A stretch of 64,000 nucleotides of DNA from a bacterium (GTDB taxonomy: Bacteria > Planctomycetota > Planctomycetia > Planctomycetales > Planctomycetaceae). The notes beneath the pieces are model-generated. The model was not told the origin of the DNA and ran no database searches. It was given only the letters and a program-made list of their open reading frames with translations. Of the stretch, positions 6,894 through 25,176 are shown one piece after another. The stretch is taken from assembly GCA_016125225.1 (NCBI GenBank), contig WGME01000018.1, positions 62,001-126,000 on the forward strand. The letters are read 5' to 3'. Position 1 is the first letter of the stretch, and each line of letters starts with the position of its first letter. The position numbers and the translations under genes were made by a program.

Positions 6894-7939
6894 TGGCCGC
6901 CAGTTCCGATCCGCAGCCGTTGTTGACGCAATTCGAACAGGCGATCCGACGCGATCCCGCACAGCGCGGCTTGATTGGCACCGAAGACACGCTGGGCCCC
7001 CTCTGCCCGGGGCATCTGGCGGCAGCCGTCGATCATCTCGCCCGATTTGCTCAACAGGTGTGGATCATCACCGGTTTTTATGTGCCGAAAGGGAACCCAC
7101 CCGCTGCCGAAACCGATGGCCCACCCGGGGCGGCCCTTCTCGCCGCGGCCTTGCAGGGGTGCGGCATCGAAGTCCGGCTGTTGACCGACCGCTGGTGCAT
7201 CGATGCCGTGCGGGTGGCGGCCATGGGATATGGAATCAAGGCCGAGCACATCCTGGCCAGTCCCGATACGGATGCTGAAGTGACGCAGTGGACTTGTGAA
7301 CTGCTAACCCATCCGGAGACGGCGGTGGTCACGCATGTCGTCGCCATTGAACGGGTCGGTCCGGCCTGCCGTCCCGAGGAATGGGGCGTTTCTTCACTGA
7401 GCGAATCCTTTGCCGCTGTCGTCCCCGAAGCTGACTGGAATTGCTGCCACAACATGCGAGGCGAAGTCATCGACGCTTACACCCCGCCGTTGCATCGGGT
7501 GATCGAGGAAGCAGCCGCCAGACGGCCGGGCGTGCGGACGATCGGCATCGGCGACGGGGGCAACGAACTCGGCATGGGGGCCATCCCCTGGCCGGAACTG
7601 CGTCGCCGGCTCGCGGAACCGCAGGCCTCGCGTATTCCATGCCGTGTGGGCACTGATTGGACCATCATCGCCGGAGTCAGTAACTGGGGAGCCGCAGCCG
7701 TGGCGGCAGGGGTCTGCTGGCAGAAACAGCGGCTCGATGTGCTGCAACCGTGGAATCGGAGCTTCGAGGAATCGCAACTACAGGCCCTTGTCACCCACGG
7801 TCCGGCGGTTGATGGCGTGACCCGGCTGCAGGAAGCCACCGTCGATGGCTTGCCGTTTCTGACCTACCTTCAACCGTGGGAAACCATGCGACTCTGGCTG
7901 GGATTGGATGCAGCGCCAGGCTCTCAAAAATCGGTCTAG
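6893..7939 (+). CDS. DUF4392 protein, D-glutamate cyclase-like
   Basis: A cytoplasmic protein of about 348 aa resembling DUF4392, the C-terminal catalytic part of mitochondrial D-glutamate cyclase, which converts D-glutamate to 5-oxo-D-proline. Landmarks are VWIITGFYVPKG near residue 50, TDRWCIDAV, VVAIERVGPA, NMRGEVIDAYTPPLH, and the diagnostic IGIGDGGNELGMG followed by a conserved CxVGTDW-type segment. The ATG at 6893 shares its A with the TAA stop of the upstream pseudouridine synthase, and GAGGGGAG in the end of that gene serves as ribosome-binding site. The link to rRNA modification is positional only. The substrate in bacteria is unproven; D-glutamate is the family-based guess. Confidence 0.85.
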   Translation: MAASSDPQPLLTQFEQAIRRDPAQRGLIGTEDTLGPLCPGHLAAAVDHLARFAQQVWIITGFYVPKGNPPAAETDGPPGAALLAAALQGCGIEVRLLTDRWCIDAVRVAAMGYGIKAEHILASPDTDAEVTQWTCELLTHPETAVVTHVVAIERVGPACRPEEWGVSSLSESFAAVVPEADWNCCHNMRGEVIDAYTPPLHRVIEEAAARRPGVRTIGIGDGGNELGMGAIPWPELRRRLAEPQASRIPCRVGTDWTIIAGVSNWGAAAVAAGVCWQKQRLDVLQPWNRSFEESQLQALVTHGPAVDGVTRLQEATVDGLPFLTYLQPWETMRLWLGLDAAPGSQKSV

Positions 7940-8027
7940 GCTGAGTTGCCGTCTGTCGCTACACTCCGCCGCCTTTCCCTCGCGAATTGGCCGGGATTAC
8001 CCTTTGCCGCTCAGGAAGATCGGCTCT

Positions 8028-9023
8028 ATGAAACCATGGAATTGCGGGCCTGCACGGCTCTTAAGTGTTTTTGCGGTTTGCGGATGCAGCGTGGCTGCGG
8101 TCCTCGCACAACAACCGCCGGGGCCAGCACAACGGCCGCAGCGTCCTGCTGCTGCTGACCTGCGGGTTGCCGAACTTGATCCCAAACTCGAATCGATTCT
8201 CGAGCGTTGGGAAGTAGAATCCGCAAAGATTCAATTCCTGCAAGGGACTCACTACCGCCAGGAGCTGAACAAAGTCTTCGCGCAGGAAAAACGCTCGCAA
8301 GGTGCATTCTTCTTTCAGGCTCCGGACCGTGGCCGATTCGATATGACAGGGACCAAACCTGAGCCGGGGCAGGATTCCAGCGTCAAGAACCCCGAGACGG
8401 GCGAACCCTATGAACTGGTCGCCGGTAACAGCGAATGCTGGATTTGCAATGGTCAGACGATTCTGCAGATCAATCATGCGGAAAAGCAGTACGAGCAGAT
8501 TCCCATTCCCCCAGAGATGCAGGGGAAGAACATCGTCCAAAGTCCGCTACCCTTCCTGTTTGGCATGAAGGCTGATGAAGCCAAGCGGCGTTTTGAACTG
8601 CGGCTCAAGTCCGAAACGGCTGACGCATACATCATTGATGCCAAGCCGTTACAGGAAATTGATGCCCGCAATTACCAGTATGCCCGCATCTACCTCGACA
8701 AGCAGAACATGATTCCCACGAGAGTGATGCTGATCGATCCCGCGGGCACGATTAACACCAACTATGCGTTCCGCGATGTCGAAGTCAATCCGAACCGGAA
8801 CGCCTTCGTTGGCTGGGTCGGTAACCTCTTCGGCAAGGGGAACCCCTTCCAGCCGAACCTCACGGGTTACAAACAAATTCAGGCCCCGGGTGGTGTCATT
8901 CAGCCGGCTGGCAACCAAGTTCCCGCAGACCGGGGACTTCAACGCAACACTTCACAACTGCCGACGAATGCTGGCCCGTCCGCGGGCAGTGCCCGCCTTA
9001 GCAACGATCGCACCGTCAAGTGA
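8028..9023 (+). CDS. TIGR03009-type planctomycete exported protein
   Basis: About 331 aa with an N-terminal signal peptide (hydrophobic stretch LLSVFAVCGCSVAAVLAQ) and a Pro/Gln-rich spacer, followed by a LolA/outer-membrane lipoprotein sorting-like beta-rich domain. The segments QAPDRGRFDMTG, WICNGQTILQINHAEKQ, PLPFLFGMKADEAKRRF and YARIYLDKQNMIPTRVML fit the planctomycete-specific TIGR03009 family. The C-terminal 80 residues are low-complexity Pro/Asn/Gly. The ATG at 8028 has AGGA upstream; a longer in-frame extension runs into the previous gene and is rejected. By fold it may bind a lipid or lipoprotein in the periplasm, but no function is established. Confidence 0.85.
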   Translation: MKPWNCGPARLLSVFAVCGCSVAAVLAQQPPGPAQRPQRPAAADLRVAELDPKLESILERWEVESAKIQFLQGTHYRQELNKVFAQEKRSQGAFFFQAPDRGRFDMTGTKPEPGQDSSVKNPETGEPYELVAGNSECWICNGQTILQINHAEKQYEQIPIPPEMQGKNIVQSPLPFLFGMKADEAKRRFELRLKSETADAYIIDAKPLQEIDARNYQYARIYLDKQNMIPTRVMLIDPAGTINTNYAFRDVEVNPNRNAFVGWVGNLFGKGNPFQPNLTGYKQIQAPGGVIQPAGNQVPADRGLQRNTSQLPTNAGPSAGSARLSNDRTVK

Positions 9024-10372: not shown

Positions 10373-10627
10373 ATCTTTTGTGGCTTAATGTTGCGTCAGC
10401 GATTCAGGGCCGTTACGCGGAAGACTAGCCCGTAATTTCCCCGGGAAGTTGCGCGGCCAGGGTGGTTTTCTTGAGATTATTTTGTGGCTCGTGCGTCTCT
10501 AGCGGTAAGGTGATTCTCAGCGCCCGATTAACCGGCACAATTCGTACATTTCCCGATCTCCGCTCTCGACAATCTCGGCGCAGTTTGCTGAACTTACCGC
10601 AGCTACCGTTCCACGCCAGGGATGCGC

Positions 10628-13600
10628 ATGATGCAACCGACTCTGATTTCACGATTTGCAGCTCTGACCCTTGTCTTCGCGACTCTGTGCCTGTGCCTCA
10701 CCGCCCGCGCTCAGGATTCAGGAAGTTCACCGCCGGCCTCGGCCGTCGACGCCAGCGGCAAGGGAGAGTCGCCGCCCGAACCGGTGATCTACCTTCCCTA
10801 CTCCGAGCTGAAGGCGGTCTTCCAGCAGCATGGGGCCTCGGTTTTTCTCTCCTTCCAAGACTATTTGAGTATGTGGGAGAAGGCGTTTCCGCAGGTCAAT
10901 CGCCCGCCGGAACAGCCCCCCGTGGGTGGCGTCATTACTTCCGCCAATTACGTCGCCACCGTGCAGCAAGATCTGGCGCAAATTGAAGCCCAGTTTGATA
11001 TTCAGATTTTAAAAGAAGGCTGGGTCGAGATCCCGGTGACGTTCGGCGAAGCCGCTGTGGGAAGTGTCACGGGCGAACCCGGGCCGGTCTTTCTCCGAGG
11101 CACCGGCAATGGCACGTATGCGCTGCTCTTCTCAAAACCGGGTCAGCACAAAATCACCTTGCAGCTCACCGCCCGGGTCCGAACCGCCCCGGAAGGCCGC
11201 AGCTTTGAACTCCAGATTCCCAACGTCGCCATTACCACGTTTCAACTGACGGTTCCTGATGCCGATCAAACCATCGATCTGCAGCCGAAACTGCTCCAGG
11301 AACCCGTTCCGGGCAACGACAAGGCGACTCAACTGAAAGCGAGTCTGGGTTCCACCGATAAGGTGACCGTCCGTTGGCACCCGCGCGTGGGGACCAAGCC
11401 CGACATGGAACTCCTCGCGAGTGCCACCAATGCCACGCTGATCACGGTCGCTGACGGCCTGATTCACGCGGACAGTTTCTTCCTGGTCGATGTCTTGCGT
11501 GGTCAGTTGCAGCAACTCCGGGTCGCGGTTCCCAAAGGCCAACGCATTCTCGATGTCACTTCCGAAGCCCGTGTGAAGGAATGGTCGGTCGCTGAAGAGG
11601 CGGAACGGCAGATCATTACTGTCGAACTCCTCAGCCGCCAATCGGGAAAGATTCCTCTCGAAGTCCATACGGAATGGCCCCTGTCAACCGAGCCTTTCGA
11701 CGCCGCTGGTCTGCAGGATGGTGTCGCTCATGGGATCCATCTGCTGGATGTGCTGCGTGAAAGTGGCCAAGTCGCCTTGCGGGCCAGTTCCGACCTGGTG
11801 CTGAACGTCACCACGCAACAGGGTCTGGCGAGAATAGATGAAGCCGAAGTTGATGCCCGCATCAAGAAGCCCGGTGCCTCCTACTTCAAATTCTACAGCC
11901 CGGACTGCCTGCTGTCGGCAACCGCGAAACCGATCGAACCGCGACTGCTGGTGGATCATGTGGCTGATCTCTATATCCAACGCAGCCAACTGAAGCTGGT
12001 CACCAGTTTGAACTACACCATCGAGCGAGCCGGGCTGTTTGAACTGAAGATCGATGTCCCCGAAGGTTTGACCATCGATAGTGTGAACTGCGAGGGCTTG
12101 AAGCAGTACGACCTGTCGACCGACAAACGGTTGCTGACGGTTGTGCTGCGCGAAAGCCGGATGGGTCCGCTGGCGGTGCAGATCACGGCCACCATGCCGC
12201 GTGACTCGCAAGCGGAAGCCAGTGATCTGACAGTGCCGCTGCTGACGCCGGAGAATGTCGCCGTCGAAACGGGTCGCTTCCGCATCCTCGCCCCGGAGGC
12301 CATCGAAGTGATTACCGATCCCACGACGATCGTGGGATTTCAACCCGATGCCGCCCCCAATACCAGCGTGGAGGGAACAGAACGCCTGGTTTCCGCCTGG
12401 ACATTCAATCGTCGGCCGATCTCAATGACAGCCCGCACGCTGCTGAAACCCACGCGGCTCACGGCTCAGGTGGGCACCACGGCTGATATTCAGCAGGGGC
12501 AAGTGCAGGTTACCGCCACCGTCCAATTCCTGGTGGAATATGCGGGCCTGGACACCTTCCGCATCGCCGTGCCGGAAGCCCTGTCCGAAATGGTGCAGAT
12601 CAGTCTGGCCGATGGCAATGCCCCGCCGATCCGACAGAAAAGTCCTGGAGCCGCCGTCGATGGCTGGGTCCCTTGGACGATTGTGCTGCAACGTGATGTC
12701 AGCGGATCGGTCGCGTTTCGAGTGACCTATGATCTACAACCGACGGCTGTCGAAAACAGTACCACCGAAACCACCACTCTGCCGATTGTGCGTGTGCTTG
12801 ATCCCTTTGTGAGCACTGCGGAAGCTCCTGCCGCTCGCGAGATTCCTGTCAGCCGTATCACGGGCGAAGTGACAGCCAAGAAAGATCGAGCCCTCTCGGT
12901 CACAGCCACCGCAACCGGGGGTGATGTCGAATCGATCGATGTCCGCGAATTATCACAATTGCCTGCTGATGGTTTCGTCGCCTTCCGCTACTATCAGCAG
13001 CCCGTCGAACTCCAACTCTCCGCCGCCAAATACGACATTCAGAATGTGATTGAAGCCGTGGTCTCGCGCGGTCTGGTGGAAGCCGTGCTCGACAAGAGCG
13101 GCACCGCTGTGATTCGGGGTCGCTTCCTGACCAAATCGAGTGAACGGCAACGCTTGCGGATTGATCTACCCAAAGGGGTCGAGCCGCTCGGCGCTGAGAT
13201 TGATGGCAAATCGATCGCATTGGAAAAGCTGCCGAACGCGAAACCGAAAGATGGCTGGGAAGCCTTCCTGATCAACGTGGCTCGGACGAAATCATCGGAT
13301 GAGACGTTCCTCGTTAGCGTGCAGTACCGAGTCACACTCACGCCCGGTCCGTTCCAAACGCGGGGTGGCGATGTGCTGTTGCGACTGCCCACGATTGGCG
13401 GAACCGAAACCGCAGCGGTCCCCGTGCAACAACTGCGCGTCGTCCTATGGGCTCCCGATGAATTTGCGTTTGTCGGATCACCAGAGCACTTTGAACGTCT
13501 TTACCGCCCGCGTTGGAAGGAACTGCTCTACACGGGTTACAGTCAAGCGGGACAGGACGACTGCCAGTCGTGGATTGGTGGCAGTTCCGGGGGGGTGTTC

Positions 13601-14017
13601 GACTTTCCCACCGAAGGCCACGCCTATGTGTATACGAACCTCGGCGGCCGCGATCGCATTCAGGTCCATTGGTGGCATCTGCCCTTCTACACCTGGATCG
13701 TCAGTGGCTCGCTGGTTTTGATCGCGGTGATCCTGCGGAATACCTCGTGGGAGAATAAGCTGACGATTCTGATCGTGGCGGCCTTTCTCGCCAGTGCCTA
13801 TGCACTGAAAGATATGGATCTGGTGTTACACGGTCTGGCGGTTTCGTTCTACGGACTGCTCGCCTTGATCGCCCTGTGGGTGCTGCATGGCGTGATGACC
13901 GGCTGTTGCCAGATCCGGAAACGATCGACCGATCCCCCCAGCCCGCCTAGTGCCGTCGTCATTCCTCCTCCGGGTGTGTTTGACAGCGTGACGTTGGGTC
14001 AGCAAAAGCCCTCGTGA
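10628..14017 (+). CDS. giant exported beta-rich protein with C-terminal membrane helices
   Basis: About 1129 aa. A signal peptide (hydrophobic FAALTLVFATLCLCL, cut after TARA) is followed by a segment with the motif VIYLPYSELKAVFQ, about 950 residues predicted to be beta-rich by their alternating hydrophobic pattern, and three to four transmembrane helices at about 1035-1105 (FYTWIVSGSLVLIAVIL, LTILIVAAFLASAYAL, SFYGLLALIALWVLHG), ending in a short Pro-rich tail. I recognise no catalytic motif. The ATG at 10628 is six bases from AGGG; the ATG at 10622 abuts it and is unlikely. The next gene on the same strand has the same architecture, so the pair probably forms one envelope system. Function unknown. 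Confidence 0.88.
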   Translation: MMQPTLISRFAALTLVFATLCLCLTARAQDSGSSPPASAVDASGKGESPPEPVIYLPYSELKAVFQQHGASVFLSFQDYLSMWEKAFPQVNRPPEQPPVGGVITSANYVATVQQDLAQIEAQFDIQILKEGWVEIPVTFGEAAVGSVTGEPGPVFLRGTGNGTYALLFSKPGQHKITLQLTARVRTAPEGRSFELQIPNVAITTFQLTVPDADQTIDLQPKLLQEPVPGNDKATQLKASLGSTDKVTVRWHPRVGTKPDMELLASATNATLITVADGLIHADSFFLVDVLRGQLQQLRVAVPKGQRILDVTSEARVKEWSVAEEAERQIITVELLSRQSGKIPLEVHTEWPLSTEPFDAAGLQDGVAHGIHLLDVLRESGQVALRASSDLVLNVTTQQGLARIDEAEVDARIKKPGASYFKFYSPDCLLSATAKPIEPRLLVDHVADLYIQRSQLKLVTSLNYTIERAGLFELKIDVPEGLTIDSVNCEGLKQYDLSTDKRLLTVVLRESRMGPLAVQITATMPRDSQAEASDLTVPLLTPENVAVETGRFRILAPEAIEVITDPTTIVGFQPDAAPNTSVEGTERLVSAWTFNRRPISMTARTLLKPTRLTAQVGTTADIQQGQVQVTATVQFLVEYAGLDTFRIAVPEALSEMVQISLADGNAPPIRQKSPGAAVDGWVPWTIVLQRDVSGSVAFRVTYDLQPTAVENSTTETTTLPIVRVLDPFVSTAEAPAAREIPVSRITGEVTAKKDRALSVTATATGGDVESIDVRELSQLPADGFVAFRYYQQPVELQLSAAKYDIQNVIEAVVSRGLVEAVLDKSGTAVIRGRFLTKSSERQRLRIDLPKGVEPLGAEIDGKSIALEKLPNAKPKDGWEAFLINVARTKSSDETFLVSVQYRVTLTPGPFQTRGGDVLLRLPTIGGTETAAVPVQQLRVVLWAPDEFAFVGSPEHFERLYRPRWKELLYTGYSQAGQDDCQSWIGGSSGGVFDFPTEGHAYVYTNLGGRDRIQVHWWHLPFYTWIVSGSLVLIAVILRNTSWENKLTILIVAAFLASAYALKDMDLVLHGLAVSFYGLLALIALWVLHGVMTGCCQIRKRSTDPPSPPSAVVIPPPGVFDSVTLGQQKPS

Positions 14018-14068: not shown

Positions 14069-14110
14069 GATCCCCCTGGCGAGGTGTTCGTGCTCAAGGA
14101 ATTCGGTGAC

Positions 14111-17100
14111 ATGTGCACCACCTTCAAAACCATCGGCTGGAAGTTATGGCTGCTGACGGCAACCCTGCTCGTTCCGTACGCCAGCCCCTGCCATGCCGAC
14201 GACAATCCTGCGACCGATCTGGTACCGGCCCGGCGATCTTTCGTGCCCTTGAAAGACCTGCAGACGCTCGTGGATCGAGATCGCCGCGGCGTGCTCCTGC
14301 CTCGCGAGCAGTTTGAAGAACTGCTGGAACAGGCCCGGAAAAATGGTTCTCTGGCCACCGCTCCACCTGCGGCACAGGCCTTGACTCACGCCCGCTATGC
14401 GACACGCGTCGTCGGTGATCAACTTCTCATGACGATCACGGCCGATCTTGAGCAGTTTGTTGGCGGCTGGAAAATCTGGAAGTTTCCGTTACAACGTGTC
14501 GCCGTCGAGAAAGCCACAGTCGATGGCCAACCGGCGATCATCGGCCGCACGAACGATCAAGCCCTTACCGTGGTCACGTCCACCATCGGCAAGCATCAAC
14601 TGGAACTGCAACTGTCGACCGAAATTGTGACCGTGGGCAGCGACCGCGTCGCGGGATTCTCGCTGTTGTCGAGCGCCACCGGCGAACTGAGTTTGACCGT
14701 AGAGGCGGGTAAACGGCTGGTGGTGGATGGAGCGGAACTCGAACGTCCGCAACCCATCGAACAACCCGCAGCCTACACCGTCTCCATCGGTGGGAAAGCT
14801 CAGATTCAACTGCGGATCACCGACCGGGCGTCAGATCGCAGCAGCGATGCATTAACCTTCGCGACTTCGGGATACGGCTTGCTGGTCGCGCCGGGAGAAG
14901 TCACCTGGCAAGTGCTGACGAATCTGCAGGTCTTTGGTCGACCGATCGACCAACTCACACTGACGGTGCCCGGTTACCTGGAAATTGCTGAAGTCGAATC
15001 AACCGGACTCGATGGCTGGGAGATTCAGGATGACCCCACCAATGCCGAACGCACTCGCCTGACGTTGACCTACGGGCAACCCTTCGAAGGCAGTCGCAAA
15101 GTTTCGTTACGGGGCGTGCTCGCGGTTCCGGCTGGCACACCGTGGTCAGTGCCTCCATTGACGATTGAGAACATCAGTTCGCATGTGGGGCAGGTGCTGG
15201 TGCAGTACCCGTTTGGGATTCGCCTGCAAGCCATCGAAATGGATGGCATCCGCCGTGCGACGGAAGCGGAAAAACCCGTTTCCGACATGCCCGAAGACAT
15301 GACTCTGGCCGCGGGTTATCAGCGACTGCGTTTCGATGCCTGGCGGGAAGAGTTTCAGTTACGACTGGTCACGGAACCCAAACAGCGTGAAGTCCATGCC
15401 GCCATCGCCGCAGTGCTCGATGTCTCCGCTGCCGAGGTCTCTCTGCAAGCGGCCCTGACATTAACGCCCCGCTATGCGGCCTTGTTCGATGTCGATATCG
15501 ACCTGCCAGCCGAATGGTCCGTGATCTCCGCGACCACCGGAGACAATCAGTCGCTCACTTGGCAGCTTGTGCCGCAGAATCCCGGAACTAATCGCGTGCG
15601 TGTCACACTGGCGACACCCTTGGCACCCGATGCGAGCACCGTGGTGCGGTTGTCGTTACGCCGCGATGTGGAAGGCTGGCCCGTGGAAACCGAGCCGGTG
15701 GAATTCGCCTTGCCGGAACTCGTCGCCCCACAGGCCAATGTGGTGGAAACCGCCCTCGTGGTGCGTGGCGACCCCGACCTGGAACTCGTCGTGACGGACA
15801 CTACGGGACTCGATCCGGCAGCTTTGAAGGCCGATTGGGAACGGCTTCGATTCCAGTCGCAAGACACCCGTTATGCCGGAACCTTACAAGTCAGCCGCAA
15901 ACCGGCACGCGTCGCGGTCGAGACCTATGGCTTTTACCGCTTAGATCCGCAGACACTGGCCTGTTCGCTCTTCTCTTCGATCTCTGTGGAAGGCGGGGGA
16001 ACGCGGCAGCTATTGGTCACCTTGCCGGAAGCCACGCCAGAGACGGTCCGGTTTCAGTCGATTGGAGCGACACTTGTCGAACAACAAGCCTTGACATCCG
16101 ATAACGGTCGCCGCGTGTGGCGACTGCAGTTTGCCGAACGGATTCTTGGTCGCGTTGCCATCCTTGTGCAGTTCACTTTGCCACGCGATCCGGCGGCAGC
16201 ATTATCGGCCCCGCTCTTGGAAGTTCCCCAAGCGGAGCGGTCGCATGGAGCCGTGGTGGTTGAGGGTGGTCCCGAACAACGCCTGACGATTGTCGCGAAC
16301 GATGGCCAAGGCCAGGCATTGCAATCGATGGACCCTTTGGAATTGCCGCCCGTTCCGTACCACTATCAGGAGCGGATCGTGGGGGTGTACCGCACCATCG
16401 GCAGCGGCAATACCTTGTCTCTGACGGAAGAACGGTTCGACAAAGCCGCGATCCCGACCGCCATCTGTTCCAATCTGACACTCATGAGCATTCTCTCGCG
16501 GACGGGGGAATGGCAGCAGCAGGCCACGTTCGATTTGCAACTGGCGGGTGTCCAGCAATTGCAGATCACGCTGCCGCCCGATGCCGAGTTATGGGCGGCG
16601 ACCCTGAATGGTGATCCTGTGGAGATTCGCAAAGCGGGGGATCAACTTTTGATTCCCCTGCCCCGCGATTTGACCGGGGTAGCGGAGGTGAGTCTGGACG
16701 TTTACTATCGTTCCACCAGTGCGGCTTTGAAGTCGAGCGGGCTGTTGTCGGAAGTCCCACCGGTGCTGCAGGCCATGACCGGACAGGGATCATCGCAGGA
16801 GGTCGATGTGCTCGAGCAAAACTGGAACCTGATTCATCCCGCAGAGACTCTGATCATCGATCATCAGACGGCTCTGGAACCAACCACGGCGTTGGACTCC
16901 CCAGGCTGGCTGGCACAACTCGGCCATTCGATCCAACTCCCGAGTCTGAAGGCGACCCTCTGGACGTCGCTGGCGATGGCGGTGTTTTTGGGCGTTCTGG
17001 CGATGGTCGTGCTGGCTTATCGACGCGGAGGAAAATGGGGTGCGCTGGCAGGCATTCTCACACCAATTGTGGTGGGAATGGTTCTGCTATGTCTGAGCAT

Positions 17101-20100
17101 GACATTTGGTCGACAACAAAGAACAGCCAACACATCGAGGGCAACTACGGTCACCGTACAGCAACCCGCGTTCTATGCCGACGAGTACATGAGCGATTTT
17201 GCTCCGCCCGCAGCGACCCCGGCAGCACCGATGGCCGAGGGCTTCCAGAGTAAAAGTGTCTTTGAGAGCGGCGGCCCCGAAGATGCTCAATTACGCAGGT
17301 TGAGCGAGTTCGACAAGTCCCAGAGTGATGCCGCAAAACAGGAAGCCGCAGAGAAGAAGGCCAGCGGAGAAAAAGACGCGATACAGGATCGATTTGGACG
17401 GGTGAAAGAGGAACTCCGTAAAAATGATGGCGGCGCGGCGATGGCAGGAGCCCCGGTTCAACCGGCCGAGCAACCACCGGCACCGCCGCAGGCCGAGCAA
17501 CCCATCCCTCAGCTTCCGCAATTGGAGCCCAAGCCCGAGAACCAGGGAATCAACGCGAATGCCCGGGCCGCGACCCGCGTGCTGAATCCGCAACGGATCA
17601 AAGGAAGGTTATCGCTCGCCCTGGTGATGGATCGCCCGGCCGATAGTGTCAAGAAGTCTTTCCGGTATGTCGGCAGTGCGGCAGCCGGTACGGGCATCCC
17701 CTTGAAGGTGGAGTATTGGGATCGCCGCGGCGGCGTGGTCTTCCGGGGCTTTCTCCTGATGCTGGGTCTCTTCGCTGGCTGGCTCCTGCGAAACCAACCA
17801 GCGGCTAAAAAACTCGGACTGGCTTTTCTCCTGCTGAGCATCGGCCTGATCTTGCTGCCCGTGGCCCCTGCGGGCTGGCAGGTCACCGTCGATGGTCTGT
17901 GGCTGGCATTGCTGGGAATGCTCCTGGCCTGGACGTTGTTTGGGCTGGGGCATGCCATCCGGTCGATCTGCCAGTGCTGTCAGCGTGTGTGCTCCTTGTT
18001 GGCCTGGCTGCTCATGCTCTTGGCGGTGAGCACGTCACAACTGCAGGCTGCGGAACCCGAGACCAAACCGGCCCCACCCGCGCCGTTACCACCGACTCAA
18101 GTGCTGATCTACGAAGACCCCGCAGCCCCCCTGGCTGCCAGTCGCGTCTTCCTGCCCTACGATCAGTTCCGCAAGCTGTATCAACTCGCCCATCCGTCGG
18201 AACTGCGTCTGCCAACGGCGCCGATCACAGCGAAAATTGTGGATTCGCTCTACTCCGCAACGGTCACCACGGCCGCGGAATCCGCCAGCTTTGTGCGAGT
18301 GCGAGCCCGGTACACCATCTTGAGCTATGTCGACGGCCAGGAACCCGTGGCTCTTCCCGTGCAGGGCGTGATCGTGAAGTCCGCCAGCCTGAACGGTCAA
18401 CCGGCGGCACTCATTACCTCCGCGACTCCGTGGACGATTCTGATTCCCGCACCGGGAATGCATGTCCTGGACCTCGATTTCGATGTGCCATTCACTCCCC
18501 AGGGGACAGCGGGGACGTTTGGCTTGAAGATCGATCCGACACCCGCCGCGCGGTTTGATTTTCAGTTGCCCGCCCCAGCCTTGTCGGTCCGCGTCAATGG
18601 TTCGACCAGTGCCTACCGTCGCGTGACGCAAGACGATACCACGCACATTGAATTCCCGGTGGACGCTGGTGGCGAACTGCAGGTGTCGTGGCAGCCGGAA
18701 CAGACGCGGGCCGGTGCCGCCGTGGTTCATGTGGAATCGGCCGCAGCGGTGAGCATTGCCGATGCCGGGGTCTCGGCCAGCCTGGGGTATCTGTACCGCA
18801 TCCGGCAGGGAGTCGTCCGCGATGTCTCGTTCCGCCTGCCCGACGACGTGCGTCTGCAGTCCGTGCTCGGCCCCGATGTGGGTGGTTGGGAGTTGATCGG
18901 CGAAGGCGTAAACCGACAGCTGCGTGTCTTTCTGAGACGCAACGTCAACGATCAGACTCAACTCACGTTGGAATGTTATCTCGGTCAGCGCGTCGATCCC
19001 GAAGTGACCTTCGATGTCCCCAACGTGACACCATTGGAAATCACCACGGAAGCCGGGACGGCAGCGATCTTCGCAGGCGATGCTTTTTCTCTGCGGACCA
19101 ATCGCGTCGAAGGACTCAGCCAGATCGAGGCCAGCACCTATCAAACACGAATCCCGGTTTCCCGCCCGAACATGGCCCCGCAAATGGCCTACCGCTTCAG
19201 CCGTCGACCATGGAACTTGAACCTGACGGCGACTCGACTCGCCACCCAGATGCAGGTGCAGATCGAACAGGGATTGCTCGTGGGAACGCGGAAAGTCCGC
19301 ATCACCACACGGGCCGTCTGTCGTCTGGCGCGCATGCCCCGTTCGTCTCTGACCGTGGAAGTTCCCGCCAGTTGGCTGGTGCTCGATGTCCAATCGGCGG
19401 GGCTTTCCGATTGGTATCGGTTGCCCGGTGAAGATGGCCAGGCCACCTTGCAACTCGATTTCCAGAGTCCTCAGCAGGGCGAAGTCGTGATCGCCGTGAC
19501 GGCAACGGAAAACCGCACGCCCGATAGCACGCTGCTCGATGTGCAACCGCTCCGTTTCCGCAAGGCCGATCGTGCGCAAACGCAACTGGCCTTGTGGTTC
19601 GAGGAAGGTTTGACCGGTCAGGTCTCGGACCTGGGAAATTGGCAGCCGATCGATGCCACTACGGTTTCGGCGAACCTGCGCGGCCTGCAATCCACCGGGG
19701 CTCAACTCGCTTTCGTGAGCCCGGAAACTCAACCGGGGCAACTCGAACTCACCTTGCACCAACAAAAGTCACGTCTCTCGGCCAGCAGTCTGACGGTGAT
19801 CAATGTCACCGACGTGGCCATTGTTTATGGGCTGGTACTGCAATGGCATATCGACCGGGCCAGCACCGAAACCCTTGTGGTCGATTTGCCGAACTGGCTC
19901 TCGTCCCGGCTGCAGTTTCATGGTCAGGACATTCGAGATGCCCGCCCGGCCCCGCTTGATGAACTCTTTACCCGTTGGACCATCACTCTGCGTGGCCCTG
20001 CTGCGGGACCGTTCCGTCTCTCGGCGTCGGCGTCCTTACCTGCCGCGACGGTGCAGATTCCTGCTCCCGAAGTGCGGTTCGTTCAGCGCGATAACGGCGT

Positions 20101-22174
20101 TTCCACGCCCTTGGAACATCAGAAGCACTATGCCCTGCTGATTAACACCTCGTTGAGCCAGCTCACTTCGAGCGATCCCAGTGTGACCGAACCCGTGCAG
20201 CGGGAAGATGTCGATCTGGTCGTGCGCGATTCATTGTTGAATCAGGCCACCGAATTCATCCGGCTGACCACTCCGGGGTCGCCGCCCAGTTGGACCCTGC
20301 AGCGTTATGTACCAGCGGCTGATGTGCCAGCGGCGGTCAATCTCGCCGACCATGTCACCCTGCTGGCCCGCGATGGGAGTTATCGCGCGGTGGCCACCTA
20401 CACCATCAAGAACCGTGATCGGCAGTTCCTTCCCTTGCGGTTGCCAACCCAGTCGCGGTTGCTCTCCGTGCTGGTGGGCCATCAGCCCTCGCGCGCAGTC
20501 ACCACCACCATCGGAAACGATCCGGCCTTGTTGATCGCCCTGCCTAAAACCAGTGCCGTGGATTTGTCGTTCCCCGTTCAGGTCGTCTATGCCGGTCGAT
20601 TGCCAAAGCCCTTGCCTGCGGCGTCTGATCTGTCGGCGGTTGATATCGATCTTCCTTCAGCAGAGGTGATTGGCACGGTGGAAAGCGAAGAGTTCGGCAT
20701 CCCCGTCGCACGCACGCAATGGACCGTTTACTTTCCCGAAGATCTGCAAGCCCGCCCGCTTTCTGACCCCAAGCGCAACAATTTGAACATCGCGGGCACG
20801 ACGGTCTCGACCGATTCTCAGGTCACGCTGTTGATCAGCGATGCGGAAGAAGTGCTGTCGGCGGTTGACATCGTCGGCAACTATCGCCTGAAGTCACGAG
20901 CGCTCTCGAACCTGAAACAACTCGATTCGGCGCTCGAAAACTACTCCAGCGTCACCAGCCACGATGCACAACTTGCCGAGACCACCGAACGGCTGAAAGA
21001 AGCGGTGAGCAAACTCAGCCGCGAAGTTGATGGCCTGTCCGACTCGGATGCGAATCGTGCTGAAATGAGCGGCGTGCTGTTCGGGAATGGACAACCACCG
21101 GCGAAAAGTGGCGACGCCTCCGTCCAACTCGGTCAGGCGATTGCGAACAACGGTGCCATCTTCACAGACAACACCAATCAACCGACCCAGTCCTCCCTCG
21201 ATGCCGCAGATTTCCGCTTTCAACCGCTCCCCACGGTTGTGAGTGGTCCGCGGGCGAGTGATGCCAAATCCCTGGCCGAACAGGCTGCCAGCAAAGGCAA
21301 CTCTCTCGAAGCCCGGCAGATTTATCAGCAATTCAACGAAGACCAGTTGAACAACTTGAACGGCACGATCGTCTCGGGCAAGAGTGTCCGCAGTCGACAG
21401 TCGGGCCGTGGTTATTTTGAATCGGAAAGCCTGGCCCGTCAGCAGCGGGGCACCAACACGTTACAGTTGGATCAGAAAAAGGAATTGATGCTGAATAATG
21501 GCATCGACCCATTCTCAAACAACAGCGACGGCGGCCGCGGATTGACGCCCCTCAATGCGGCTGATCCGTTCGGCGTGACTACGACCTGGAGTGCCGAAGC
21601 CCCTTCCGTTCGCCAAAGCCTGGACGACTTGATGCCAATGCTGTCACAGCAGGGTGGTGCATTCACTCTCGGACTTGAAGGCATGGGCGGCTCTGGTGGA
21701 ATGGGAGGCGGTGTTGGCATGGGTGGGGGAATTGGCGGCGGCGGAATGGCGGATGATGACAATGATTTGATACACGACTTCGACAGTGATGATTCCGGTT
21801 GGTCGCAAACCGGCGGACTCTCTTTGCCCATTCAACTCCCGACGGATGGAGAGCATCTGGTCTTTTCGAAAGCCGGGGGCAATGCCAAGCTCGCCCTGCG
21901 TCTCAAAACCGTCCACAGCGTGCAGCAAGGATTCGGCTGGCTGTGGGCGGGGCTTTGTACGGTTTTGTCAATCGTCGTTCTGGCAGTTCTACGTGACCCG
22001 GCACGCCGCGAGCACCTGCAGAATCATCTGCCGCTGATGCTGGCGATCCTGTCGGCCATCGGCGTGTTCCTGCTGCCCGATCTGTGGCAGCTTGCCGCCT
22101 GGGTGGTCTTCGTGACATGTGCCAGTTGGACCGCCTGGACTTACCGCCGCTCACCGAGCGTCTCAGCGGAATAA
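14111..22174 (+). CDS. 2687-aa exported membrane protein, probable fusion of two giant-protein units
   Basis: Residue numbers are from the ATG at 14111. A signal peptide (LWLLTATLLVPYASPCHA) leads into SFVPLKDLQTLVDRDRRG, resembling the start of the upstream protein. A beta-rich ectodomain ends with two membrane helices at about 945-997. A charged, Ala/Pro/Gln-rich linker follows (to about 1200), then several helices at 1208-1313. The last looks like a second signal peptide (LLAWLLMLLAVSTSQLQA). A second unit begins with SRVFLPYDQFRKLYQLA, runs through another beta-rich ectodomain, a helical segment near 2256-2313, and a Gly/Met-rich patch at 2521-2548, and ends in membrane helices near 2605-2676. 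No enzyme motif is seen. An in-frame GTG at 14084 is an alternative start without a good ribosome-binding site. Confidence 0.88.
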   Translation: MCTTFKTIGWKLWLLTATLLVPYASPCHADDNPATDLVPARRSFVPLKDLQTLVDRDRRGVLLPREQFEELLEQARKNGSLATAPPAAQALTHARYATRVVGDQLLMTITADLEQFVGGWKIWKFPLQRVAVEKATVDGQPAIIGRTNDQALTVVTSTIGKHQLELQLSTEIVTVGSDRVAGFSLLSSATGELSLTVEAGKRLVVDGAELERPQPIEQPAAYTVSIGGKAQIQLRITDRASDRSSDALTFATSGYGLLVAPGEVTWQVLTNLQVFGRPIDQLTLTVPGYLEIAEVESTGLDGWEIQDDPTNAERTRLTLTYGQPFEGSRKVSLRGVLAVPAGTPWSVPPLTIENISSHVGQVLVQYPFGIRLQAIEMDGIRRATEAEKPVSDMPEDMTLAAGYQRLRFDAWREEFQLRLVTEPKQREVHAAIAAVLDVSAAEVSLQAALTLTPRYAALFDVDIDLPAEWSVISATTGDNQSLTWQLVPQNPGTNRVRVTLATPLAPDASTVVRLSLRRDVEGWPVETEPVEFALPELVAPQANVVETALVVRGDPDLELVVTDTTGLDPAALKADWERLRFQSQDTRYAGTLQVSRKPARVAVETYGFYRLDPQTLACSLFSSISVEGGGTRQLLVTLPEATPETVRFQSIGATLVEQQALTSDNGRRVWRLQFAERILGRVAILVQFTLPRDPAAALSAPLLEVPQAERSHGAVVVEGGPEQRLTIVANDGQGQALQSMDPLELPPVPYHYQERIVGVYRTIGSGNTLSLTEERFDKAAIPTAICSNLTLMSILSRTGEWQQQATFDLQLAGVQQLQITLPPDAELWAATLNGDPVEIRKAGDQLLIPLPRDLTGVAEVSLDVYYRSTSAALKSSGLLSEVPPVLQAMTGQGSSQEVDVLEQNWNLIHPAETLIIDHQTALEPTTALDSPGWLAQLGHSIQLPSLKATLWTSLAMAVFLGVLAMVVLAYRRGGKWGALAGILTPIVVGMVLLCLSMTFGRQQRTANTSRATTVTVQQPAFYADEYMSDFAPPAATPAAPMAEGFQSKSVFESGGPEDAQLRRLSEFDKSQSDAAKQEAAEKKASGEKDAIQDRFGRVKEELRKNDGGAAMAGAPVQPAEQPPAPPQAEQPIPQLPQLEPKPENQGINANARAATRVLNPQRIKGRLSLALVMDRPADSVKKSFRYVGSAAAGTGIPLKVEYWDRRGGVVFRGFLLMLGLFAGWLLRNQPAAKKLGLAFLLLSIGLILLPVAPAGWQVTVDGLWLALLGMLLAWTLFGLGHAIRSICQCCQRVCSLLAWLLMLLAVSTSQLQAAEPETKPAPPAPLPPTQVLIYEDPAAPLAASRVFLPYDQFRKLYQLAHPSELRLPTAPITAKIVDSLYSATVTTAAESASFVRVRARYTILSYVDGQEPVALPVQGVIVKSASLNGQPAALITSATPWTILIPAPGMHVLDLDFDVPFTPQGTAGTFGLKIDPTPAARFDFQLPAPALSVRVNGSTSAYRRVTQDDTTHIEFPVDAGGELQVSWQPEQTRAGAAVVHVESAAAVSIADAGVSASLGYLYRIRQGVVRDVSFRLPDDVRLQSVLGPDVGGWELIGEGVNRQLRVFLRRNVNDQTQLTLECYLGQRVDPEVTFDVPNVTPLEITTEAGTAAIFAGDAFSLRTNRVEGLSQIEASTYQTRIPVSRPNMAPQMAYRFSRRPWNLNLTATRLATQMQVQIEQGLLVGTRKVRITTRAVCRLARMPRSSLTVEVPASWLVLDVQSAGLSDWYRLPGEDGQATLQLDFQSPQQGEVVIAVTATENRTPDSTLLDVQPLRFRKADRAQTQLALWFEEGLTGQVSDLGNWQPIDATTVSANLRGLQSTGAQLAFVSPETQPGQLELTLHQQKSRLSASSLTVINVTDVAIVYGLVLQWHIDRASTETLVVDLPNWLSSRLQFHGQDIRDARPAPLDELFTRWTITLRGPAAGPFRLSASASLPAATVQIPAPEVRFVQRDNGVSTPLEHQKHYALLINTSLSQLTSSDPSVTEPVQREDVDLVVRDSLLNQATEFIRLTTPGSPPSWTLQRYVPAADVPAAVNLADHVTLLARDGSYRAVATYTIKNRDRQFLPLRLPTQSRLLSVLVGHQPSRAVTTTIGNDPALLIALPKTSAVDLSFPVQVVYAGRLPKPLPAASDLSAVDIDLPSAEVIGTVESEEFGIPVARTQWTVYFPEDLQARPLSDPKRNNLNIAGTTVSTDSQVTLLISDAEEVLSAVDIVGNYRLKSRALSNLKQLDSALENYSSVTSHDAQLAETTERLKEAVSKLSREVDGLSDSDANRAEMSGVLFGNGQPPAKSGDASVQLGQAIANNGAIFTDNTNQPTQSSLDAADFRFQPLPTVVSGPRASDAKSLAEQAASKGNSLEARQIYQQFNEDQLNNLNGTIVSGKSVRSRQSGRGYFESESLARQQRGTNTLQLDQKKELMLNNGIDPFSNNSDGGRGLTPLNAADPFGVTTTWSAEAPSVRQSLDDLMPMLSQQGGAFTLGLEGMGGSGGMGGGVGMGGGIGGGGMADDDNDLIHDFDSDDSGWSQTGGLSLPIQLPTDGEHLVFSKAGGNAKLALRLKTVHSVQQGFGWLWAGLCTVLSIVVLAVLRDPARREHLQNHLPLMLAILSAIGVFLLPDLWQLAAWVVFVTCASWTAWTYRRSPSVSAE

Positions 22175-24006: not shown

Positions 24007-25176
24007 ATGCGCTGGTGCCTGGCCTGTTTGTTTTCCAGCATCTTGGGAAGTTTGTTCACGCTCTGGCTGGTGTCCTCGCCCTCGCAGAACGCAGCCATTG
24101 CCGAGGATTTTCGGATTCGGCAGACGGCACGTTATGTCAGTCCGGTCGAGCAGGTGAACCCTGCCCTTTCCCGGATCTTTGATCCCACGGGACTCACTCC
24201 GGAAGAAGCGGTCAATGTCGCGGTCTATGAAGCGGCGAATCGCAGCGTCGTGAACATCGAATCCAAATCGGTCCGAAATGGCCTGCTGCTCGAATTGCAG
24301 GCAGAAGGGGCAGGCTCAGGCGCGGTGATTGATCAATCCGGCCATATCCTGACCAACAATCATGTGGTACAAGATGCGACCACGATTCAGGTTACGCTCT
24401 ATAATGGCGAAAACTACGAAGCCAAACTCGTCGGTGCCGACCCGTTGAACGATGTCGCCATAATCAAGGTCGAGGCCCCGACGGAAGAACTTTACCCGAT
24501 CAATATCGGGGATTCGCGACAGCTGAAGGTCGGCATGCGGGTCTTCGCCCTGGGAAATCCGTTCGGTCTGGAACGGACTTTGACCACGGGCATCATCTCC
24601 AGCCTGAACCGATCGCTGCAGATTCGCCAGAACTGGTCGATCAAGTCGATCATCCAGATCGACGCGGCGATCAATCCCGGTAGCTCGGGCGGACCTTTGC
24701 TCGACGCCCATGGCCGTTTGATTGGCATCAACACCGCGATTGCTACTACGAGTGGTCAGAGTGCCGGGGTCGGTTTTGCCATTCCGGTGAGTCTGGTGCA
24801 ACGAGTAGTGCCTCAGCTCCTGCAGCATGGCCGGGTCATTCGCGCGGAAACCGGCATCACGCGGGTCTTCCAGACCGACGAAGGCCTGATCATCGCCGAA
24901 CTCAAAGCCGGGGGACCGGCCGAACGCGCGGGACTACGTGGTCCTAAAGTCGTTCGCACGCGACGGGGCCCGTTCACTGTGGAACGCCTTGATCGTTCCG
25001 CAGCGGATGTGATCGTAGGTGTGAATGGCGAAAAAGCCACAACCGTTGAAGATTTCCTGGGTTACATCGACGAACGACGCCCCGGAGAGAATGTAAACCT
25101 GGAGATTCTGCGAAACGGCAGCAAGATGACCGTGAATCTCAAGCTGATTGCTTCCGAAGCCAGCCCGACTCCGTGA
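24007..25176 (+). CDS. HtrA/DegP-like trypsin-fold serine protease with PDZ domain
   Basis: An envelope quality-control protease of 389 aa. An N-terminal signal peptide or anchor (LACLFSSILGSLFTLWLV) precedes the protease domain, where the triad is visible: His in ILTNNHVV, Asp in PLNDVAIIKV, and Ser in INPGSSGGPLL. One C-terminal PDZ domain (about 285-385) follows, with GPAERAGLRG and VNGEKATTVEDFLGYID. A single PDZ is typical of DegS or HtrA-type proteins rather than DegP. The PDZ contains a small insertion around RTRRGPFTVERLDR. The start is the ATG at 24007 with only a weak ribosome-binding site. It converges on rpmA, with the rpmA terminator in between. Confidence 0.92.
   Translation: MRWCLACLFSSILGSLFTLWLVSSPSQNAAIAEDFRIRQTARYVSPVEQVNPALSRIFDPTGLTPEEAVNVAVYEAANRSVVNIESKSVRNGLLLELQAEGAGSGAVIDQSGHILTNNHVVQDATTIQVTLYNGENYEAKLVGADPLNDVAIIKVEAPTEELYPINIGDSRQLKVGMRVFALGNPFGLERTLTTGIISSLNRSLQIRQNWSIKSIIQIDAAINPGSSGGPLLDAHGRLIGINTAIATTSGQSAGVGFAIPVSLVQRVVPQLLQHGRVIRAETGITRVFQTDEGLIIAELKAGGPAERAGLRGPKVVRTRRGPFTVERLDRSAADVIVGVNGEKATTVEDFLGYIDERRPGENVNLEILRNGSKMTVNLKLIASEASPTP

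Follow-up and report, generated by a model that had tools for sequence, protein, structure and literature searches.

Organization of the locus

The window, by which we mean the whole stretch of 64,000 nucleotides analysed, carries an upstream gene (hereafter UP) and, behind it, a stop-free reading frame encoding a giant protein of 2687 aa, for which a GTG at position 14084 is a possible alternative start (Table 1). The giant frame contains two units in succession. The signal peptide at the start of unit 1 scores weakly in our weight matrix (4.1 at residue 29), and the unit 1 start motif GVLLPREQFEELL occupies residues 60–72. The original prediction had placed a second signal-peptide-like helix inside the chain near residue 1300, immediately ahead of a segment resembling the start of the first unit and of the upstream gene, with membrane helices before it and at the C-terminus. 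All of these elements are recovered here: the helix LLAWLLMLLAVSTSQLQA lies at residues 1296–1313, the start-like segment SRVFLPYDQFRKLYQ follows at 1344–1358, five single hydrophobic segments precede the helix (946–968, 977–995, 1208–1226, 1235–1260 and 1262–1283), and a further hydrophobic block closes the protein. The predicted signal peptidase I site, LQA↓AE (arrow, predicted cleavage), falls between residues 1313 and 1314.

Table 1. Features of the upstream gene and of the giant gene (window coordinates; residues of the giant protein)
Feature	Position	Strand	Residues	Remarks
Upstream gene (UP)	10622..14017	+		1131 aa; homologous to units 1 and 2; signal peptide, ~950-aa beta-rich ectodomain, three C-terminal TM helices
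Giant fused gene	14111..22174	+		two homologous units in a single frame (ORF, profile alignment)
Unit 1 N-terminal signal peptide	14111..14197	+	~1–29	sequence and alignment
Unit 1 ectodomain	14198..16945	+	~30–945	
Unit 1 TM helices	16946..17095	+	946–968, 977–995	cytoplasmic loop with YRRGGK
Linker	17096..17731	+	996–1207	212 residues, charged and proline-rich, predicted outside (sequence, topology)
Three-TM block at unit 1 end	17732..17959	+	1208–1283	homologue of the C-terminal block in unit 2 and in UP
Internal signal peptide	17951..18049	+	1281–1313	n-region 1281–1295 with two Arg; hydrophobic core and c-region 1296–1313
Unit 2 ectodomain	18050..20980	+	1314–2290	profile alignment, structure model
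Unit 2 linker	20981..21934	+	2291–2608	last third glycine-rich (sequence)
Unit 2 C-terminal hydrophobic block and tail	21935..22171	+	block 2609–2670	two to three helices

Homology links the two units and the upstream protein

For the profiles we aligned 24 complete giants and 29 proteins of the upstream type, counting those of the window; the relatives came from the family of the window and a single sister family. In profile–profile alignments, all three pairs matched with a probability of 100%: unit 1 with unit 2 over 882 columns (E 1.8e-57), unit 1 with UP over 873 columns (E 1.6e-58) and unit 2 with UP over 887 columns (E 5.3e-61). The likeness of SRVFLPYDQFRKLYQ to the starts of unit 1 and of the upstream gene, which the original prediction had noted, is thus part of a similarity far above chance.

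The C-terminal membrane blocks could also be aligned, more weakly than the ectodomains, over 64 (unit 1/unit 2), 100 (unit 1/UP) and 33 columns (unit 2/UP), with probabilities of 88.0, 94.1 and 88.6%, respectively, and E-values from 3e-6 to 1e-7. The extra TM helices of unit 1 (946–995) gave no alignment with the other blocks in the profile comparison (under 3%). As the C-terminal block is shared by unit 1, unit 2 and UP, the ending of unit 1 corresponds to the ending of a whole protein. Read from its sequence, unit 1 closes as a complete protein and unit 2 opens as one, such that two complete protein modules lie within one reading frame.

The internal helix has the features of a conserved signal peptide

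Among the 24 aligned complete giants, the internal segment is present in all (24/24) and its −1 position is alanine in all (24/24), with A, V, L, S, C or I at −3; the neighbouring linker, in contrast, is unconserved. In an alignment of 20 sequences, A1313 forms a column of at least 90% identity, with few other such columns in its stretch, and in more distant families most of the junctions listed carry AxA followed by Q, E or D. Across the larger set of 89 fused chains described below, the called −1 position is alanine in 72, and at least two Lys/Arg residues lie within the 28 residues before the hydrophobic core in 67 of these 72.

Using a weight matrix trained on 58 of 62 upstream-gene signal peptides (four were dropped for want of a clear site, and three contig-cut unit 1 frames caught by the upstream model had been left out beforehand), we scanned 56 chains, including two split unit 2 frames, beyond residue 330. 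The junction was the top position in 39/56 chains and among the best three in 48/56. With more loci and a larger pseudocount, it ranked top in 58/89, compared with a chance expectation of 4.7 of 89 if all positions were equal, and among the best three in 77/89. This expectation is lenient because other TM helices compete, because the last TM helix falls within some junction windows and thereby raises the rank-1 counts, and because the training-site rule asks for alanine at −1; as this rule also prefers Q, E or D at +1, the matrix favours such a pattern. Another segment outscored the junction in 31/89 chains, the best junction position was a residue other than alanine in 8/56 chains (17/89 in the larger set), and five loci (L126, L143, L153, L157 and L158) showed no convincing cleavage site at the junction. 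The window's own LQA↓AE site is among the weaker ones, with leucine at −3 and rank 3 in the 56-chain scan; in the larger scan, it scored below a TM position within the junction window.

A motif count provides a cleaner test than the matrix ranking, and it bears directly on an alternative in which the internal helix is an uncut signal anchor and the chain persists as one multi-span protein with two ectodomains. For these counts, four of the 89 chains were omitted as having no junction peak (n = 85), as were hydrophobic segments that start within residues 1–260 of chains with an uncut 5' end. The strict motif [AVST]xA[QED] behind a hydrophobic core was found in 41/85 internal segments but in 30/634 other hydrophobic segments (Fisher p 3e-24), and in 23/58 real N-terminal signal peptides (internal versus real, p 0.39); a looser motif gave 66/85, 148/634 and 42/58, respectively. 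An AxA c-region is needless for a plain TM helix, and unit 2 of the naturally split relatives presented below still opens with a signal-like segment. On the side of the uncut anchor, fusion persists in at least 89 genomes, the site in the window itself is mediocre, and cleavage at A1313↓A1314 is predicted from sequence. We therefore regard an uncut anchor as unlikely; the helix has the appearance of a conserved signal peptide and not of a plain TM helix.

The predicted topology fits this reading. In the window, the short loops predicted inside hold 3, 3 and 2 Lys+Arg and zero acidic residues, the short outside loop at 1254–1261 holds zero Lys+Arg, and the 212-residue outside linker holds 29 Lys+Arg and 26 Asp+Glu. 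The short loops thus obey the positive-inside rule with unit 2 outside. In the resulting model, the internal signal peptide would start in the cytoplasm, and unit 2 and the cutting site would lie outside, a position that fits the requirement of signal peptidase I. The junction therefore combines an internal signal peptide, a conserved −3/−1 site and the right predicted orientation.

An uncut chain might also be accompanied by unit 2 made separately from internal translation starts. In-frame ATG, GTG and TTG codons do occur at window residues 1267–1306; a simple pattern search found no Shine–Dalgarno-like site upstream of any of them, and such starts would leave the conservation of alanine at −1 unexplained, which makes this the least probable of the readings that we weighed.

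Fused genes predominate and split forms are rare

A search with the single sequence at E 0.001 gave a match in 36 of the 59 relative genomes, which were drawn from the window's family and its one sampled sister family. The unit 2 profile found relatives in at least 162/248 sampled genomes of the class (E 0.001) and at least 83/292 sampled genomes of the phylum (E 0.0001), both being lower bounds since just two or three candidates per genome were scored. Among the sampled members of the window's own family, G009, G015, G030, G134 and G221 had no unit 2 profile match.

On contigs that are long enough, the usual locus comprises a UP gene of ~1050–1400 aa and a giant of mostly 2200–2900 aa. At least 89 chains, each from a different genome, carry unit 1 and unit 2 in a single frame, counting the window and including some chains cut by contig ends. 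This number is a lower bound because twelve further long chains fell outside the junction rule (L041, L079, L096, L097, L100, L105, L107–L110, L112 and L140); their junctions, and a long chain at L102 that lacks a profile match, stood outside the larger matrix scan. Some sister-family giants are short (L033, L034, L094, L095 and L104; ~1600–1840 aa) and have a shorter unit 2.

The original prediction had proposed a fusion of two neighbouring genes and had suggested a comparison with relatives for split or adjacent separate genes, which would tell against the idea if all homologues proved to be single-chain. Four split forms were found, as opposed to at least 89 fused ones. In two loci, the modules exist as three separate genes: in tandem at L113 (G301), with UP of 1128 aa, unit 1 of 1237 aa and unit 2 of 1138 aa, and at L114 (G275), with genes of 1202, 1419 and 1470 aa. 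In both, each gene scores best with its own unit profile, and unit 2 has its own N-terminal signal-like segment. The other two, L077 (G259) and L078 (G169), belong to different genera of the window's family; here a few hundred bases of repeat DNA interrupt the gene precisely at the junction, between the unit 1 TM block and the unit 2 signal peptide. Pieces of the inserts recur in their own genomes; counting both strands and the self matches, there are 82 match rows in G259 and 46 in G169. Downstream of the insert, unit 2 has an intact frame and retains its signal-like segment (SAFA↓QE and TQA↓QE); unit 1 is represented on these contigs by its last 533 and 365 residues. Complete-frame members of the two genera are fused (G190; G149, G175 and G265). 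Both are draft assemblies and may be misassembled, yet the order and orientation are right.

Several other candidates were set aside and are left uncounted. Short frames in G256, G206, G242, G171, G248, G031, G019, G027 and G022 mostly reflect contig ends. The frame at L150 (G436) stops near a contig end but has TM helices before unit 2, and L081:2950-6992 (G255) is one unit in three broken frames, possibly through decay or sequencing error. L123–L125 (G347, G469 and G276) have a different arrangement, namely a unit of 1450–1635 aa followed by an upstream-type unit of 1266–1284 aa; the stretch read there contains no fused giant.

Further variation was seen in the composition of the loci. In G281 (L115 and L161), a second upstream unit and an unaccompanied unit 1 gene (1419 aa) lie behind the fused giant, and the remainder of the contig yielded no unit 2 to go with the latter. 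An extra upstream-type unit lies directly behind the giant at L138:13164-16000 (G377); the array can therefore hold more members. At L152 and L167 (G364 and G350), approximately four to five added hydrophobic segments lie between the unit 1 block and unit 2. Records labelled as proteobacterial (L069–L072) encode a shorter, compact version of the unit without the TM block, and in L069, L070 and L072 two adjacent, mutually homologous genes stand side by side.

The fusion is probably old

In a FastTree phylogeny of 141 sequences selected as a subset from the loci (853 columns), UP sequences grouped together in 43/43 cases with one foreign row, unit 1 in 45/49 with one foreign row, and unit 2 in 47/49 with four foreign rows, these being unit 1 of L132, L147, L153 and L155. 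The separate clades indicate that the units had mostly parted before the sampled phylum diversified. Two homologous halves per chain could also arise by internal duplication of one gene within a single protein, with no joining of neighbours, and the four chains in which unit 1 stands beside unit 2 would agree with that origin. Such a duplication, however, predicts pairing of unit 1 and unit 2 of the same species throughout, against which the tree speaks with its otherwise separate clades, and it sits poorly with the existence of separate three-gene forms and with the terminal features of whole genes kept in both halves; we consider it very improbable. L113 and L114, with their separate genes, fall among the fused sequences in the tree, which implies either fission or repeated fusion.

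Taken together, the separate-gene relatives and the signal-peptide-like internal helix support the proposed fusion of two neighbouring genes, and the fusion is old and widespread rather than a recent event in the window's lineage.

A proposed model for the giant as a cut polyprotein

The reading that we favour, to which we assign a probability of roughly three in four, is that two paralogous genes fused early and that the resulting polyprotein is cut by signal peptidase I at A1313↓A1314 into two anchored proteins. Each ancestral gene would have encoded a signal peptide, a beta-rich ectodomain of ~900 aa and a C-terminal membrane anchor, and two neighbouring paralogues would have come into one reading frame early in planctomycete history. 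The whole chain would be translated as a polyprotein, the N-terminal signal peptide exporting unit 1, the unit 1 TM block returning the chain to the cytoplasm and the internal signal peptide exporting unit 2. Signal peptidase I would then probably cut behind Ala1313, yielding two separate anchored envelope proteins in equal amounts, both of which may work with a third protein, the product of the upstream gene. The original prediction had also raised possible internal processing by signal peptidase, and on the present evidence it was probably right. The join, the signal peptide and, in most relatives, the cutting site are conserved across the phylum, which adds depth to the original observation and would be difficult to account for if the site were unused.

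Should this model hold, bacteria can use cut polyproteins stably and phylum-wide, with the site kept through deep divergence, and the device perhaps fixes the dosage of very large envelope proteins. Signal-peptidase-cut polyproteins are familiar in viruses and, to our knowledge, rare in bacteria. In the paper library searched, nothing was listed on the giant/UP family or on bacterial polyproteins of this kind.

Gene neighbourhood and possible function

A cluster of membrane proteins lies upstream of the unit genes at 16 loci in all, at a median distance of 27 bases. Considering loci with an upstream unit and at least 1.5 kb before UP, it was present at 10/35 outside the class and 1/53 inside it. 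These loci include L126, L132, L141, L157, L160, L162, L163 and L172, and L096 in the class. The four members scanned (L141, L157, L132 and L096) all carry vWF_A, VWA and YfbK_C domains, with zf-HC2 above the cut-off in one and below it in another. A sigma-factor-like gene stands upstream of the YfbK_C-cluster membrane protein in 10/16 loci, and the two that were scanned (L126 and L160) are sigma-70 region 2/4 proteins. The YfbK-type von Willebrand protein is directly upstream in some other classes, as a neighbour and not as a homologue of the units. There is none beside the window's gene pair, and the single YfbK_C gene of the window's own genome is on another contig.

Within the window, a LolA-like protein is encoded at 7908-9023, 1.6 kb upstream of the unit genes; it matches PF03548 just above the cut-off and the planctomycete model TIGR03009 below it. 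The window also holds a neighbouring DUF1570 gene, which together with the TIGR03009 match pointed to a planctomycete as its source, and, downstream of the giant, a gene for a trypsin-like/PDZ (HtrA-type) protease at 24007-25176. A cluster of ABC ATPases was found near 10 loci; as it mixes different ABC proteins, we claim no link to Lol.

As a lead, the units may make up a scaffold or sensor of the envelope, anchored in the membrane and built of three subunits. A more specific version is possible, albeit speculative: an envelope complex of three giant, ribophorin-I-like anchored subunits, two of them supplied by a cut polyprotein that would equalise their amounts, which in part of the phylum would be encoded directly downstream of genes for an ECF sigma factor and for an anti-sigma/von Willebrand membrane protein and would serve as the outer arm of an envelope-sensing system.

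Comparison with known folds and systems

Searches of Pfam and NCBIfam returned no family for the units above the cut-offs. A large planctomycete family that had no name in these searches now gains an architecture and a predicted topology. Two of 18 unit 2 members match DUF1559 (best E 3.2e-5), matches that we guess stem from the linker motif SNLKQL...ENY. In a sequence search of the PDB, unit 2 gave a single row (a designed protein, E 0.66) and unit 1 gave none.

Structure models were of low confidence, with a pLDDT of 62 for the compact homologue L072 and 57 for the window's unit 2, and they are not independent, as the alignments behind them share nearly the same seven proteins. Ost1/ribophorin I (6ezn_A) was the first Foldseek row for the L072 model (E 2.1e-9, 430 columns), and ribophorin I (6s7t_E) was the second for the unit 2 model (E 1.6e-8), behind an integrin alpha chain (E 5.7e-10); integrin and complement rows were set aside for their very large rmsd. 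According to a review (PMC7226087), the lumenal part of Ost1 comprises two similar domains built chiefly of beta sheets, and the protein has one TM helix. The planctomycete units, by comparison, are longer and have several TM helices, and the superposition over both domains, in these low-confidence models, has a large rmsd. The ribophorin I family PF04597 had no match in P0001 or P0002 up to E 1, or anywhere in the window's genome when the limit was raised to E 10.

The N-terminal beta domain of M1 aminopeptidases aligned with both models in VIA-align, with Z 12.8 and rmsd 2.9 over 152 residues for L072 and Z 13.8 and rmsd 3.3 over 153 residues for unit 2. The catalytic motifs HExxH and GxMEN are absent from P0001 and P0002, and PF17900 had no match in the window's own genome; by these tests the units are not peptidases.

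In its predicted processing, the giant has a counterpart in the FbcH cytochrome b/c1 precursor of Bradyrhizobium japonicum, in which a membrane protein and an internal signal sequence share one frame and signal peptidase cuts the internal signal sequence to give two proteins. The two FbcH products are not known to be paralogues, and FbcH is not known to be related to the planctomycete giant in sequence or function. In the giant, by contrast, the parts are paralogous and each over 1000 aa, the arrangement is phylum-wide, and the cleavage is a predicted one.
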